A DNA stretch of 20,572 nt, from IMG/VR virus record IMGVR_UViG_3300020202_000226, positions 1 through 20,572 of that record, one strand, 5' to 3'. This document shows, piece by piece, positions 2,451-17,767 of this stretch. Position 1 is the first letter of the stretch. Every line of letters starts with the position of its first letter. The DNA is from a virus. The notes below the pieces were generated by a model, which saw only the letters and a program-made list of their open reading frames with translations, did not search any database and was not told where the DNA came from. The translations under genes were made by a program, and so were the position numbers.

Positions 2451-2881
2451 TGGTGGTGTTTGACGCCAAGCTAGCCCCGCCACAATTTGCGAAGCACTTC
2501 CAAGAGATCGCCAACTGGATTCAATGGCAGATTATCAATCCGCCCAACCGGCTAGCCTACGACATTTTAGCCGGCGTCACGATCATGCGCAAAGCGGACG
2601 CGCCAGAGCCGCATTATGAGTTTGGTCAGGGCATCGTGCTAGTGCCAGGGAAACACAGCCGAGGCTATTTTGTTGAGCGCAATATGTCTTGCTCGCATGA
2701 AGCACTCAGGGACCTGCCGACGGACTTCCTGTTTGAACAAGCCGCCGTACTCGCCGAGCTGATAGCAGGTGACATCATGGTTGAGGCGCTGCGCTCGCTC
2801 TTATACTTTTACGACCCCCAGCAGGATGGTCCTGACTGGCGCCCCTCGGAGTCGTTACCGGAGGATTATTACGCGATATGA
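2450..2881 (+). CDS. Unknown phage protein (143 aa)
   Basis: ATG 2450 overlaps the HNH stop (TGATG) and has TTGGAGGA about 8 bases upstream, so I chose it over the in-frame TTG at 2435. The 143-aa product is a soluble, mixed alpha/beta, mildly acidic protein with no signal peptide or obvious metal motif. It has an aromatic N-terminal helix (FQEIANWIQWQI) and a helical C-terminal part (FLFEQAAVLAELIAGDIMVEA). The four-base overlap with the next gene points to one operon. Function unknown. Confidence 0.75.
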   Translation: MVVFDAKLAPPQFAKHFQEIANWIQWQIINPPNRLAYDILAGVTIMRKADAPEPHYEFGQGIVLVPGKHSRGYFVERNMSCSHEALRDLPTDFLFEQAAVLAELIAGDIMVEALRSLLYFYDPQQDGPDWRPSESLPEDYYAI

Positions 2882-3249
2882 GTGTGGTCACAAATCTGAT
2901 ACTGTCCTACAGCCTCTCTGACCGCGACATGCTTACTGAGGTTAACGAATACTTTGTTAAGCACTACTACCGTCCCGACTGTGGCTTTCAAGACAATGAT
3001 GACAACTACGGCGGCAATAAGTACCTTGAGCGCTGTACCTATGTGGGGGCTTTCAACAAGCTCGATCTGTGCCACTTTGTCGCCTACCTCAGAGCTTTGA
3101 AATGGGAAGAGCCGGACAAGGTCCAGCTCTTTGCGTGCCAACAGCAGGAGGACGTTTACAACGAGAGGTTTCACGATACCTCGCCGTGGTGGTGTGAGGG
3201 GACCGTCGGCTCTGGGTGTCCCAGCAGTCCCAGCAACCTGACCACCTGA
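2878..3249 (+). CDS. Conserved unknown protein, last gene of the left plus-strand operon
   Basis: A 123-aa protein whose ATG overlaps the previous TGA. It begins MSVVTNLILSYSLSDRDMLTEVNEYF, then GGNKYLERCTYVGAFNKLDLCHFVAYLRALKWEEPDKVQLFACQQQED. The pattern resembles a family of short conserved unknown proteins in phages and actinobacteria; this is recalled, not searched. The last 20 or so residues (Ser/Pro/Gly-rich) lie past the recognisable core and overlap the tail of the opposing recombinase gene by 79 bases. The true 3' end may have been altered when the minus-strand block joined here. Confidence 0.75.
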   Translation: MSVVTNLILSYSLSDRDMLTEVNEYFVKHYYRPDCGFQDNDDNYGGNKYLERCTYVGAFNKLDLCHFVAYLRALKWEEPDKVQLFACQQQEDVYNERFHDTSPWWCEGTVGSGCPSSPSNLTT

Positions 3250-3809
3250 GTCCTGTGCAGTCCCGTCTCACGCGCTATGTCCGCCGTGCACCAGCCCATT
3301 GCCGCCAGCTCTCTGACACGCTCACGCTGTGCCACCAGTCCCGCCCCCGCAGGCCGGCCCACATGCACACCCGCGTCACGCGCCACAGCCATAGCCTCAC
3401 GCGTGCGCTGCGCTATCAAGTCCCGCTCAAACTCAGCCACCGCACCAAGCATGTGATACACAAGCCTACCTGCCGGCGTTGTGGTGTCGACGGCTTGCTC
3501 AACACACACTAAGTCTGCGCCCATTGCGGCCAGCTCATGCGCAAGCTCGGTTAGCCGACTCAGTGACCTTGCCAGCCTGTCAAGCCGCAGCGCGATGATC
3601 CCGTGAGCCTGCCCCAGCCGGCACAGCTCCAATGCCCGCTCAATGTCGGGGCGGCGCTTTGCCGCCCCTGAAACAGGTGGGTAGGACTCCAGCACGACCA
3701 GCTCATAGCCGCGCTGCGCGCACCATTGCTGACATTTCTCTGCCTGGACTGTCAGGCTGTATGGCTGATCCGCGGTGCTGACGCGGGCGATTAGGACGAG
3801 TTTTTTCAT
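3171..3809 (-). CDS. Serine recombinase (resolvase/invertase type)
   Basis: From the ATG at 3809 the product is 212 aa. The catalytic domain is intact: LIARVST with catalytic Ser11 and Arg9, the active-site RLDRLARS motif (R75, D77, R78, R81), then the long E helix AVAEFERDLIAQRTREAM. A Hin-type helix-turn-helix (TADIARETGLHRTQVVRLLG) completes the resolvase/invertase plan. There is no large C-terminal integrase domain. It cuts and rejoins DNA at paired short sites via Ser-DNA links: resolution, inversion or small-element transposition. GGGAGGAGGA lies upstream of the chosen start; the frame continues upstream to 3917 but lacks a comparable site. It lies at the left edge of the minus block, tail to tail with plus-strand genes. 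Confidence 0.92.
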   Translation of the reverse strand: MKKLVLIARVSTADQPYSLTVQAEKCQQWCAQRGYELVVLESYPPVSGAAKRRPDIERALELCRLGQAHGIIALRLDRLARSLSRLTELAHELAAMGADLVCVEQAVDTTTPAGRLVYHMLGAVAEFERDLIAQRTREAMAVARDAGVHVGRPAGAGLVAQRERVRELAAMGWCTADIARETGLHRTQVVRLLGLLGHPEPTVPSHHHGEVS

Positions 3810-3811
3810 GG

Positions 3812-4003
3812 CTAGTCCTCCTCCCACACGACGACTTTGATGGCGTCTTTGAATAGCCATTGCAGGCGCTCGGCTTCTTTTTTTTCGGTCTGCCAACGCC
3901 CAGCCGCAGCCGGCCACCGCCCAACCGCATGATGTGAGTAATACTCAAGCGCCCGCCTGATAGTCAGCCGCTCCTGGTACATAAGCTCTGTCTGTTTTGC
4001 CAT
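3812..4003 (-). CDS. Small basic unknown protein upstream of the recombinase
   Basis: A 63-aa product from ATG 4003 (MAKQTELMYQERL). An ATG six bases upstream is in frame, but GAGG lies only about 3 bases from it against 9 from the chosen one. The sequence is helical, rich in Arg, Trp and Glu, with ERLQWLFKDAIKVVVWEED at the end. The stop is two bases before the recombinase ATG, so the two genes are translated from one message. It is preceded by one of the four identical CCCACTAGCAA leaders. No family recognised; it could be a recombination accessory factor, by position only. Confidence 0.65.
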   Translation of the reverse strand: MAKQTELMYQERLTIRRALEYYSHHAVGRWPAAAGRWQTEKKEAERLQWLFKDAIKVVVWEED

Positions 4004-4030
4004 TGTCATTACCTCGTGTTGCTAGTGGGT
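4004..4030 (-). promoter_or_regulatory. CCCACTAGCAA leader element, copy A
   Basis: The 11-mer CCCACTAGCAA (plus-strand 4019-4029) is followed after 3 bases by GAGGTAATGAC and the start codon. Identical 11-mers precede three other minus-strand genes. Here the whole gap between two genes is only 32 bases, leaving no room for a full promoter, so it probably acts in the RNA. Confidence 0.7.
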
Positions 4031-4035
4031 GTGTC

Positions 4036-4482
4036 TCATGATATCTCAAACTCTTGCCAGCCCTCGTCTGAGCGCCAGCCGGACCATTTTTCGGGCTTAA
4101 CATCGCCTTGCCATATTTCCAGCAGGATTGGGTCCTGATGGTCCTCCGCTACTTGCTTAGCACGCTCAACCATGTCGTCCAATGCCTCACGCGTGGCGCC
4201 GTAGTAGTGCTCAAGCTCCTCGTATTCAGTATCTCCAACCAATTGGATACTCGCATGCCACGGTCCCCGCGTGCAGCTGCTAGGCACGTGCCCTCGCTCC
4301 TCCAATTCCGCCACACGCAGCTCAAGCGCGCGCAGCCTGCCCTCTACAGTGTCTGTCGCTTGCAGCAGCACCGCCCGTAGTATCTCATTGACACGCACAC
4401 TGCGTGTCTGTTTGGGCAGTGCCTCCACTGCCTTGCATACCTCGTCGTCGAGGTAGAATGTGTATTTGTTTTTGCGTTGCAT
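4036..4482 (-). CDS. Ribbon-helix-helix protein with coiled coil
   Basis: A 148-aa protein. Residues 5-40 (KYTFYLDDEVCKAVEALPKQ, then SVRVNEILRAVL) look like a ribbon-helix-helix DNA-binding unit. A heptad-like helix (VEGRLRALELRVAELEERG) at about 46-64 could dimerise. The C-terminal half (65-148) is acidic, with many aromatics, and unassigned. The start overlaps the stop of the gene before it in the operon (TAATG), with AGGAGG in the end of that gene. A DNA-binding regulator of this block is a reasonable guess. Confidence 0.7.
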   Translation of the reverse strand: MQRKNKYTFYLDDEVCKAVEALPKQTRSVRVNEILRAVLLQATDTVEGRLRALELRVAELEERGHVPSSCTRGPWHASIQLVGDTEYEELEHYYGATREALDDMVERAKQVAEDHQDPILLEIWQGDVKPEKWSGWRSDEGWQEFEIS

Positions 4483-4859
4483 TACACGCCCTCCTTTGCT
4501 CGCTCCGAGAGAAGATGCAGAGCCTCTATAGCAGCACGCAGGCGCCCACTGCTGGCAAGGGCGTCTTTCAGAGTCTCAAAGCATGTGCACTGGTAGCCTT
4601 CCGAATAGCCGATTGTGACCATGCAAAAATCCAAGCGGACTCTAGGCCCATCAACTGGCTTATCAAACCACAAGGTCAGAGCGCTGAGTGTGGGACCAGC
4701 GTACCCGTCCCCGTATATCTTCCCGCCGTCAAAAATTACTGACTCCCACGCTTCCTTGAGGTGGTTACGTATCAGTTCCTCAGGCAGCAGAGCCGGCCAG
4801 TCACTGTCCGATCCCTCCAGCCTCTCTAAGAATTGCTCTCTCGTGTATTTGTCTAACAT
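4482..4859 (-). CDS. Unknown protein (125 aa)
   Basis: The product starts MLDKYTREQFLERLEGSDSD and ends AKEGV. It overlaps its neighbours by one base on both sides (TAATG at each junction), and AGGAGGGCGTG serves both as codons for the upstream protein's EGV end and as the ribosome binding site. The middle (ALTLWFDKPVDGPRVRLDFCM) looks like beta strands; both ends are helical. No motif recognised. Its tight coupling with the two adjacent genes suggests a three-gene translational unit at 4036-5110. Confidence 0.7.
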   Translation of the reverse strand: MLDKYTREQFLERLEGSDSDWPALLPEELIRNHLKEAWESVIFDGGKIYGDGYAGPTLSALTLWFDKPVDGPRVRLDFCMVTIGYSEGYQCTCFETLKDALASSGRLRAAIEALHLLSERAKEGV

Positions 4860-5110
4860 TACACGCCCTCCTCAACCTCAAGCAAGCCGGTGCAAGAGGG
4901 GACGCTCTCGCGGAAACCATCGCCCCGTAGTTTCCACACTTTCAGCGTGTCCTCGTCAAGCTCATACTCGTCAAGATCATTCATCTCGTCGTCACGCGCC
5001 GCCTCATACGCCACTTGTAGCGCGTCCTTTAGGTTCAGATCGTCGCCATTGGTGGCGATTGCCACGCAGCCAAGCGCTTTCAGTCTCTCAAGTGCCTCTG
5101 TGTATCTCAT
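4859..5110 (-). CDS. Small acidic unknown protein (83 aa)
   Basis: ATG 5110 (MRYTEALERLKALG) has CGAGGGTAAAGACA just upstream, matching the GAGGTAATGACA pattern of the block's other leaders, and is preferred over the in-frame start at 5137. The protein has an N-terminal helix and an acidic middle (DDEMNDLDEYELDEDTLK). It ends VEEGV, sharing its last codons and stop with the ribosome binding site and start of the next gene. First gene of the coupled 5110-4036 trio. Function unknown. Confidence 0.65.
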   Translation of the reverse strand: MRYTEALERLKALGCVAIATNGDDLNLKDALQVAYEAARDDEMNDLDEYELDEDTLKVWKLRGDGFRESVPSCTGLLEVEEGV

Positions 5111-5157
5111 TGTCTTTACCCTCGTTTCGCCCGTCATACATTACTGGGGCTCATCAG

Positions 5158-5197
5158 TGCGGTGCTTTGCCGCAGACGAGGGGCGGTTATACCGCCC
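5158..5197 (-). other. Two small stem-loops between RadC-like gene and the next operon
   Basis: GGGCGGT at 5181-5187 pairs with ACCGCCC at 5191-5197 around a 3-base loop that contains the RadC-like gene's stop region. TGCGG at 5158-5162 pairs with CCGCA at 5170-5174. Neither has a T-run on the minus strand, so they are not typical intrinsic terminators; they could protect mRNA ends or separate operons. Confidence 0.4.
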
Positions 5198-5648
5198 ACA
5201 TCCAGTCCTTGCGCTCGCGGTAGTGATAGTACCTGTCGCCCACGATTATGTGGTCAAGCACTTGTATATTCAGAAGCGCTCCCGCCTGGATCAGTTGTCT
5301 TGTGGTCTTGTCGTCGTCCTCGCTGGGAGTCGTGTCACCGGACGGGTGGTTATGCGCCACTATCACGGCATACGCATTAGCCAAGATCGCCCCTTTGAAC
5401 ACCTCACGTGGGTGCACCAGACTGCACGTCGCCGTGCCGTGTGATACCACGCTCATGCCTATCGGCTCTAAGCGGGCATTTAGGTACACCGCCACAAACT
5501 TCTCCTCTGCCTCGTCACACATCCATGACAACAGCGGATGTAGCGCGTCAGGCCCGTCCACGCGCTGTGCCACGTATGTGCGCTTACGCTCTCTGACGAG
5601 CTTGACTGACCATTGCTCAATGCTGGCTTGTATTGTCTCGATGCTCAT
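5187..5648 (-). CDS. RadC-like JAB/MPN (JAMM) domain protein
   Basis: A 153-aa protein with the RadC C-terminal JAB/MPN domain. VAHNHPSGDTTPSEDD at 97-112 gives the full JAMM zinc site (H99, H101, S109, D112), and an upstream acidic residue (E46, E48 or E49) could complete it. LNARLEPIG and the NHPSGD core are typical of RadC. The N-terminal HhH region of long chromosomal RadC (about 220 aa) is absent, as in short RadC forms on plasmids, ICEs and phages. The biochemical role of RadC remains unsettled; older repair claims were withdrawn. The start has GAGGTAATGCAAC upstream and leader copy B. Confidence 0.9.
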   Translation of the reverse strand: MSIETIQASIEQWSVKLVRERKRTYVAQRVDGPDALHPLLSWMCDEAEEKFVAVYLNARLEPIGMSVVSHGTATCSLVHPREVFKGAILANAYAVIVAHNHPSGDTTPSEDDDKTTRQLIQAGALLNIQVLDHIIVGDRYYHYRERKDWMWAV

Positions 5649-5680
5649 GTTGCATTACCTCAGTGTTTTGCTAGTGGGAA
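5649..5680 (-). promoter_or_regulatory. CCCACTAGCAA leader element, copy B
   Basis: CCCACTAGCAA (plus-strand 5668-5678), a 6-base spacer, GAGGTAATGCAAC and the RadC-like ATG. A large stem-loop stands 14 bases further upstream. Confidence 0.7.
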
Positions 5681-5694
5681 TTACCGGTCAGTGT

Positions 5695-5749
5695 CACTGC
5701 CGGGTGTGGCGCGGTATGCTCTGGACAAACCGCGCGTCACCGGGCAGTG
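5695..5749 (-). other. Long imperfect stem-loop between minus-strand genes
   Basis: The 21-base arm 5695-5715 (CACTGCC, GGTG, GCGCGGT blocks) is the reverse complement of 5729-5749 at 18 of 21 positions, around a 13-base loop. There is no T-run on either side. It fills the gap between the gene at 5753-6034 and leader copy B. Confidence 0.75.
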
Positions 5750-5752
5750 TGG

Positions 5753-6034
5753 TTAGGCCTCAAGACAGAAGATGTCAGAGCCCTCATTAAAGTCGCAGCA
5801 GGCAAGCCATAGCACGCGCTCTGTTATCTCAGCTACCGTGCTGTCCTCAAGCTCAGTTGCTGTCCAGCCGCCTGTGCTTTTCAGATAGCGCTTGGCACGC
5901 TCAATATCCACAGTAAAATTCAACTTTTCAGCCCAGTGAATCACAGCCTCACTCACGTCACCGGACGCGCTGCAATCAGCGATGCACTCAGCGGGCAGGT
6001 CCTCAATGTACAGGATGTGTGTTACATTAACCAT
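5753..6034 (-). CDS. Small acidic unknown protein (93 aa)
   Basis: ATG 6034 (MVNVTHILYIEDLP) is chosen because GAGGATTACGAC lies at the right distance; the earlier in-frame ATG at 6049 would overlap that site. The product is acidic and helical, with cysteines at CIADCSAS and LACCDF but no regular zinc spacing. It is preceded by leader copy C and a hairpin, and followed by the large stem-loop at 5695-5749. Not recognised. Confidence 0.65.
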   Translation of the reverse strand: MVNVTHILYIEDLPAECIADCSASGDVSEAVIHWAEKLNFTVDIERAKRYLKSTGGWTATELEDSTVAEITERVLWLACCDFNEGSDIFCLEA

Positions 6035-6060
6035 TGTCGTAATCCTCATTGCTAGTGGGT
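6035..6060 (-). promoter_or_regulatory. CCCACTAGCAA leader element, copy C
   Basis: CCCACTAGCAA (plus-strand 6049-6059), a 1-base spacer, then GAGGATTACGAC and ATG 6034. This is the most compact of the four copies. Confidence 0.7.
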
Positions 6061-6071
6061 GTTATTGACGG

Positions 6072-6103
6072 CGGATGTCCGGGTCACCGGACGTCCGTTT
6101 TTT
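6072..6103 (+). terminator. Intrinsic-terminator-like hairpin reading in the plus direction
   Basis: CGGATGTCCGG at 6072-6082 pairs with CCGGACGTCCG at 6087-6097 (11 bp, one G-T wobble) around GTCA, followed by six T at 6098-6103. In the plus direction this is a textbook intrinsic terminator, yet surrounding genes run on the minus strand. It may stop plus-strand transcripts entering from the left, or act as a plain structure in the minus message. Confidence 0.6.
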
Positions 6104-6284
6104 ATGCTAGGGCACCGCGTTCGGTGCCTGTGGCGTAGCGCTCACAGCTAGGGCAGCGGAGCCAGTAGATCTCACAGTACTGATGCTCACAGTCAGGGCA
6201 GACAGTGTAGGGCTTGCTGTGTGTTTTGCACGTATAAATCACATGTGTTCCAAGCTTGTAGCGCTTGAGATCTTGGATTGTCAT
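6102..6284 (-). CDS. 60-aa zinc-ribbon protein, first gene of the minus block
   Basis: The product (MTIQDLKRYKLGTHVIYTCK start) has YTVCPDCEHQYC and LRCPSCERY, so two CPxC knuckles form a zinc ribbon with extra Cys. The first 20 residues are basic. It is first in the leftward block, directly behind leader copy D and the best promoter in the window. Small zinc-ribbon proteins in this position are often early regulators, which is an inference from place only. Confidence 0.7.
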   Translation of the reverse strand: MTIQDLKRYKLGTHVIYTCKTHSKPYTVCPDCEHQYCEIYWLRCPSCERYATGTERGALA

Positions 6285-6311
6285 GTCAATACCTCAGGTT
6301 TGCTAGTGGGT
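6285..6311 (-). promoter_or_regulatory. CCCACTAGCAA leader element, copy D
   Basis: CCCACTAGCAA (plus-strand 6300-6310), a 4-base spacer, then GAGGTATTGAC and ATG 6284. It lies about 36-46 bases downstream of the likely transcription start of the minus promoter, so it would be part of the RNA leader. Confidence 0.7.
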
Positions 6312-6352: not shown

Positions 6353-6381
6353 AGATTACTGCGGTTTACCGAATCTGTCAA
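6353..6381 (-). promoter_or_regulatory. Sigma-70-type promoter for the leftward block
   Basis: Reading the minus strand, TTGACA (plus-strand 6376-6381, perfect -35) is followed after exactly 17 bases by TAATCT (6353-6358), which keeps the three most conserved -10 bases (T, A and final T). It faces the first minus gene at 6284. This is the strongest promoter seen in the window. Confidence 0.6.
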
Positions 6382-12231: not shown

Positions 12232-12721
12232 ACGCCAGCTCCCACCGCCACCGCAAGAGATCGACCGCTCAGAGTACGTAAAATACGGCGACGAGCTGCC
12301 ACCAAACGCGGTGCTGCTGCGCGACTTGCGCGCATGCCAGGGTGACTTGGACGAGTTTCTGCACAGGCACGCCGGCAAGCGTCGCCGCGAGGTTTTGTTT
12401 GAGATAAATGTCCGCAGGCAAGAGGCCCCGTCACTGACAGAGGCTCAATACGCGGTGGGGATGACGAGTTTTGCTGACGAGTGGGACAAGCTAATCCGCT
12501 CAGGCGAGCAGCTAACGCTGGATTTAGTCACCAGCCGGTTGCTGACTGAGCTAAAAGCCATGACAGATGTGGGGGATGTGATCAAGGTAGTTGAGCGCCT
12601 GGCACCGGAGAAATGGGCTCGTAAGACGGTGGCGGGACGGGGCGTGGGGCGGACCTCCAAAGGGGATAGGAAGGACCGCTTGGACGAACTGTTAGGCATG
12701 ACGGGTGGCGATACGGGATAG
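12218..12721 (+). CDS. terS: Probable terminase small subunit
   Basis: A 167-aa protein just ahead of the large terminase, the usual place for the DNA-recognising small subunit. AAGGAG lies 6 bases before GTG 12218. The sequence is basic at both ends (MPPRKRQLPPPPQE; RKTVAGRGVGRTSKGDRKDR), with helical regions ELPPNAVLLRDLRACQGDLD and QLTLDLVTSRLLTELKAMTD and a DDLDRL-like tail. No clear HTH of a known TerS family can be named, so the call relies on size, basic nature and position. It overlaps terL by 17 bases. Confidence 0.5.
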   Translation: MPPRKRQLPPPPQEIDRSEYVKYGDELPPNAVLLRDLRACQGDLDEFLHRHAGKRRREVLFEINVRRQEAPSLTEAQYAVGMTSFADEWDKLIRSGEQLTLDLVTSRLLTELKAMTDVGDVIKVVERLAPEKWARKTVAGRGVGRTSKGDRKDRLDELLGMTGGDTG

Positions 12722-17669: not shown

Positions 17670-17741
17670 GCCGGTGTAGCACAACGGTAATGCGGCTGCC
17701 TTGTAAGCAGTAGATTGCAGGTTCAAATCCTGTCGCCGGCT
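17670..17741 (+). tRNA. tRNA-Thr(UGU)
   Basis: A complete cloverleaf: acceptor GCCGGTG (17670-17676) pairs with CGCCGGC (17734-17740) with one G-T wobble; D-arm GCA...TGC; anticodon stem GCTGC/GCAGT with loop CTTGTAA (anticodon TGT); T-arm GCAGG-TTCAAAT-CCTGT. Discriminator base T at 17741; no encoded CCA. G1-C72 and C2-G71 are Thr identity pairs. It decodes ACA and possibly ACN wobble codons. It lies inside the head gene cluster, in the same direction. Confidence 0.93.
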
Positions 17742-17767
17742 CTAAGGGGTTCACATCGGTTTCGGTA

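Follow-up and report, generated by a model that had tools for sequence, protein, structure and literature searches.

The question raised by this locus is why four genes that stand close together on one strand of a viral genome should each be preceded by the same word of 11 letters, CCCACTAGCAA. The window, i.e., the whole stretch of DNA that was analysed, is the 20,572-base virus record IMGVR_UViG_3300020202_000226, a fragment of a tailed-phage genome that is possibly incomplete. No close relative of it was found in the collections searched, and its capsid protein reaches only ~26–30% identity to those of phages of Myxococcus, Bradyrhizobium, Ruegeria and others. A plus-strand block encodes SSB, a PAPS-reductase-like protein and an HNH protein, a minus-strand block (3.2–6.3 kb) a resolvase, a RadC-like protein and small ORFs without a family, and a plus-strand late block the terminase, the portal and the major head protein. 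Between the structural genes there is a tRNA-Thr (TGT) at 17670–17742 (+), and at 3171–3249 the plus-strand ORF 2878–3249 overlaps convergently with the minus-strand resolvase gene. The minus-strand block, read from its 5′ end, is composed as follows.

6300–6310, minus strand: first copy of the word, before the 60-aa ORF, with GAGG at 6292–6295 and ATG at 6284
6102–6284, minus strand: 60-aa ORF that follows the first copy, no family match
6049–6059, minus strand: second copy of the word, before the 93-aa ORF, with GAGG at 6044–6047 and ATG at 6034
5753–6034, minus strand: 93-aa ORF (m5753) that follows the second copy, no family match
5668–5678, minus strand: third copy of the word, before the RadC-like gene, with GAGG at 5658–5661 and ATG at 5648
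5187–5648, minus strand: RadC-like JAB-domain protein (PF04002, phrog_10276) that follows the third copy
5119–5182, minus strand: type III hammerhead ribozyme (RF00008), downstream of radC and ahead of the following gene
4859–5110, minus strand: ORF with the hammerhead leader replacing the word, no family match
4482–4859, minus strand: coupled ORF (its start overlaps the previous stop), word absent
4036–4482, minus strand: coupled ORF (its start overlaps the previous stop), word absent
4019–4029, minus strand: fourth copy of the word, before the 63-aa ORF, with GAGG at 4012–4015 and ATG at 4003
3812–4003, minus strand: 63-aa ORF (m3812) that follows the fourth copy
3171–3809, minus strand: serine recombinase / resolvase (PF00239), tightly spaced, word absent

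The original prediction had placed the four copies exactly here and none elsewhere in the window, and an exact search of both strands agrees with it on both counts. It had also described the word as followed by one to six bases, a GAGG and the ATG; as measured, the gaps from word to GAGG are 4, 1, 6 and 3 nt and those from word to ATG 15, 14, 19 and 15 nt, the word beginning 25–30 nt 5′ of the ATG. The start of m5753 is most likely 6034 (the word and the ATG at 6049 overlap), and that of m3812 is most likely 4003 and not 4009. With the refined starts (6284, 6034, 5648 and 4003), all four genes have the arrangement GAGG-N7-9-ATG, and the same spacing is seen for the gene starting at 5110. Set against random positions, the placement holds: an order-3 Markov model expects 0.004 copies on the minus strand where four are observed, and the positions lying 0–8 nt 5′ of a GAGG with an ATG downstream, which make up ~0.6% of that strand, hold all four. 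The word is the sole 11-mer with four copies in the window, and any 11-mer occurring four times on one strand turned up in 3 of 300 simulated sequences in one run and in 1 of 100 in another.

Within the minus-strand block the word stands at four of the five non-coupled gene starts, the fifth (after radC) being taken by the hammerhead, and both the word and the ribozyme are absent from the coupled genes (starts 4859 and 4482) and from the closely following resolvase. It is confined to the accessory block at 3.8–6.3 kb, with no copy before the terminase, portal and capsid genes. A second repeated word of the minus-strand block, CCGGTGAC, was dropped because it is partly coding (Ser-Gly-Asp, including the RadC motif).

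Whether such a word acts in the RNA or as part of a promoter can be approached through its predicted folding and the DNA upstream of it, where three further features lie.

6353–6381, minus strand: weak promoter-like pair, TTGACA (6381–6376), 17-nt spacer and TAATCT (6358–6353), found by reading, ahead of the first word-bearing gene
6070–6099, minus strand: stem-loop just 5′ of the second copy of the word (upstream 70 nt, z = −4.5)
5695–5749, minus strand: long stem-loop 5′ of the third copy of the word (upstream 70 nt, z = −5.1)

The word itself is predicted to be mostly unpaired (unpaired fraction 0.70 vs 0.40 for the background). A strong stem-loop is predicted 5′ of three of the four words (z −2.5, −4.5 and −5.1), the remaining word being inside the 32-nt gap at 4019; the stem-loops that precede the three words have no conserved sequence in common. 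The predicted accessibility of the Shine–Dalgarno sequence (SD) is not uniformly high, which counts against a leader that aids translation. The stem-loop at 6070–6099, which is part of the minus-strand operon, reads on the plus strand as an intrinsic terminator. Neither a conserved −10/−35 nor other conserved bases were found 5′ of the four words, and no −10-like box stands in register with any copy in the window. The promoter that had been proposed before 6300 is plausible and weak, the TTGACA-17-TAATCT pair not being recovered in a strict sigma-70 scan. The accompanying proposal that the word is an RNA leader or translation signal, and not a promoter, has fared better: the constrained distance to the SD and the ATG, the lack of a conserved −10/−35, the predicted single-strandedness and the absence at coupled genes all support it. 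Base pairing of the word with 16S rRNA was rejected, the best runs being no longer than those of shuffled words.

The explanation favoured here, to which we give about an even chance, is that the word is a start-associated leader with a function in translation initiation that serves in addition as a recombination patch between gene cassettes. The word would then be a stretch of RNA without structure that sits immediately 5′ of the SD, roughly from −25 to −15 relative to the ATG. It would mark the accessory-operon genes that need a fresh translation start, and it may help 30S subunits, or a trans-acting factor, to use those starts. At the cassette boundaries the identical word would serve as a short homology patch and, since it is identical at each of them, cassettes could be gained and lost by recombination between copies. 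Within the window only four copies are available, and the genome, which may be incomplete, has no close relative in the collections searched.

The gene starting at 5110 lacks the word, which counts against reading the word as a leader, and the element that stands there instead, the hammerhead at 5119–5182, had been missed in the original prediction. It matches Rfam RF00008 over the full length (model positions 1–54) with 49.2 bits, the gathering threshold being 48.5, and an E-value of 2.7e-8, and it has the conserved core CUGAUGA / GAAA / GUC and three stems, with the cut predicted after the C at 5175. The gene that begins at 5110 has its SD within ACGAGGG, the 3′ strand of stem III. As judged from the match in sequence and structure, the ribozyme, which occupies the word's position at this one boundary, would self-cleave the polycistronic RNA and thereby free the SD held in stem III. 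Prophage hammerheads have been suggested to cut long transcripts into gene-length mRNAs (PMC3088659), and the one in the window likewise separates two genes of a phage operon that run in the same direction; it differs from them in that the SD of the next gene is in stem III and in that the other boundaries of the block have the word. An SD-holding hammerhead at the only non-coupled boundary without the word offers a case in which control of translation by a ribozyme could be tested in a phage operon. In another viral contig (L145), a type II hammerhead is located at 12415–12484 (+), ~2 kb from a radC homologue.

The core of the word, AC[CT]AGCAA, recurs at the same place, 5′ of the SD, in two further viral lineages, with 4–10 copies per contig. 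The first is a marine group (listed as L018, L044, L053, L066, L112 and L113) that surfaced in the scan for the word plus GAGG. It carries [CAG]ACTAGCAA immediately 5′ of the SD in one gene after another, 5–10 times per contig in seven contigs. The repeats are oriented, with up to 10 ACTAGCAA copies forward and at most 1 reverse and with 0 in a reversed-word control, and the spacer between word and SD gains or loses bases among orthologues. The marine group has no protein similarity to the window; its nearest named relatives are Roseobacter phages, and in the nearest of these, CRP-114 and CRP-361, the leader was sought and is absent. The second lineage is a contig (L171) that was retrieved through its RadC homologue and not through the word. 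There, AACCAGCAA precedes seven genes, its own radC homologue among them, and the RadC family phrog_10276 is common to this contig and the window; the CTAG core is not kept in its version of the word (CCAG). For SD-preceded starts, an 8-mer with at most one mismatch from the word is met in 1.7%, and the chance of one match of this kind among the ~5 repeat-leader lineages seen de novo is roughly 8%; the resemblance to the window word is suggestive and not proof.

Further contigs have single or double copies. Most hits of the viral-contig scan for the word plus GAGG were due to chance, a second scan for lineages with at least three copies found none further, and the scan with a control word yielded no multi-copy contig. 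A general phage signal was rejected, because a start after CCCACTAGCAA+GAGG elsewhere in IMG/VR (8/118) is no commoner than after any GAGG (9.2%). A search of genome contigs for prophages with the leader gave 0 hits with the strict pattern and 17 scattered ones with a looser pattern, with several leaders in none of the contigs; a match to a longer pattern in L098/L207 was taken as chance because it is apparently antisense inside another reading frame and present in a single copy; and a short-oligo BLAST of the word against named phages returned chance-level matches only. Other sampled phages have repeated leaders of different sequence, e.g., one (L430) in which a word follows a −10-like sequence at ~25 places, so that repeated leaders are a recurring phage habit and the core common to several lineages could be a coincidence. 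The L430 unit, gTATATAGTAt..cttATCAACAAC..AAGGAGAAA-ATG, mostly on the minus strand, stands before nearly all genes and has the look of a promoter-leader-RBS cassette. In Arthrobacter phage Racecar (L449; 5408–8904), seven early genes have a repeated TACCAACC leader in front of them, and this often follows a −10-like sequence.

The marine group also allowed the follow-up of a further proposal, namely that a mobile cassette system with common leaders lies behind the repeats. Among 116 alignment ends from these related contigs, which are not independent of each other, 26 fall at the word, compared with 6.4 at random positions (at most 23 in 1000 draws) and with 3 at gene starts without the word. 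For instance, L018 is without a 103-aa gene that is present in L112; it tracks L112 to the first leader and resumes after the second, i.e., the switch occurs at the word. Sequence comparison thus gives direct evidence of gene gain or loss, with cassettes joining at the repeat, in the marine lineage, one of two unrelated lineages in which a nearly identical core has the same position. The support for the cassette proposal comes from that different lineage, and for the window's own lineage recombination between copies of the word is inferred by analogy. Junctions fall at gene starts anyway, and recombination may therefore result from the repeats rather than be what they are selected for.

The same junctions speak for an alternative that sees the word chiefly as a boundary sequence, spread with the cassettes by recombination at gene starts and having no role of its own beyond carrying a usable ribosome-binding site. 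Boundary sequences are, as far as they are treated in PMC3029335, a proposed route to phage mosaicism, and in the marine lineage the word is where gene-content junctions cluster. A word that only hitch-hiked would, however, have no need to remain exact when the spacer between it and the SD ranges over 1–6 nt in the window and gains and loses bases in the marine orthologues, and this explanation is considered unlikely. A second alternative, that a phage or host regulator (an RNA-binding protein or small RNA) binds the word in the RNA and so coordinates the accessory genes, would fit a word that is identical at four non-coupled starts, stays within one gene block and is predicted to be unpaired. 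No candidate regulator of the word was found in the window, in particular no RNA-binding protein among the genes searched, and neither the word nor its complement has a further copy there that might act as an antisense RNA, which leaves this possibility quite improbable.

Being short, asymmetric, in one orientation and at gene boundaries, the word might also be a DNA operator like the stoperators of the cluster A mycobacteriophages (PMC3029335), with a repressor silencing the accessory genes. Against this, the spacing to the SD and ATG varies by only a few nucleotides, a constraint that a block of elongation would not require, the CTAG core is lost in the CCAG version of L171, and the genes of the block include no recognisable HTH repressor; an operator is very unlikely. 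A reading of the word as part of a promoter for each gene, either its core or the first transcribed bases, as seemingly in L430 (TATATAGTAT then ATCAACAAC), deserves scant credence, for although repeated leaders come right after −10-like sequences in L430 and in Racecar and T7-type promoters contain CACTA, the window words have neither conserved upstream bases nor a −10-like box in register, and at 4019 the genes are no more than 32 nt apart.

Taken beyond the window, the reading as a translation-and-recombination leader can be extended, tentatively and with considerable doubt, to AC[CT]AGCAA 5′ of the SD as a leader common to unrelated lineages (the window, the marine roseophage-like group and L171), which would be held through conserved host machinery or transfer between phages, alongside ribozyme processing that would expose starts in the same operon.

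Repeats at phage gene starts have been on record for years without a mechanism, and the window word resembles several of them, most closely the motif of the Microbacterium cluster EC phages and the repeats of the cluster K mycobacteriophages. The start-associated sequences (SAS) of the cluster K mycobacteriophages and the cluster EF Microbacterium phages, for which a role in translation initiation was proposed (PMC3203893, PMC7302621), are short asymmetric repeats at gene starts, in one orientation, in several copies and before non-structural genes only, all of which is true of the window word. They differ in that SAS include the SD and lie 3–7 bp from the start codon, whereas the window word ends 14–19 nt before the ATG, and in the conserved inverted repeats of the ESAS type, which go with about half of the SAS and are absent at the window words. 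Phage boundary sequences, in the form in which they are cited in PMC3029335, are short repeated sequences between genes through which homologous exchange can take place; the junctions seen at the word in the marine group are of this kind, and for the lineage of the window the likeness would hold by analogy. The intergenic motif of the Microbacterium cluster EC phages, 18 bp long, in 12 copies, 21–30 bp 5′ of the start codon and of unknown function (PMC7302621), is asymmetric, in one orientation, in small intergenic gaps and 5′ of the RBS, and the window word has the same placement. Its sequence (TAGaCTATaGGTgTaAgC) is another and longer one than CCCACTAGCAA, its hosts are actinobacterial, and some of its 12 copies are among structural genes. 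The window word is accordingly filed as a start-proximal oriented repeat and set apart from SAS, because SAS include the SD while the word, lying 5′ of the SD, excludes it, and it extends such repeats to a lineage that has no link with the actinobacteriophages from which they are known.
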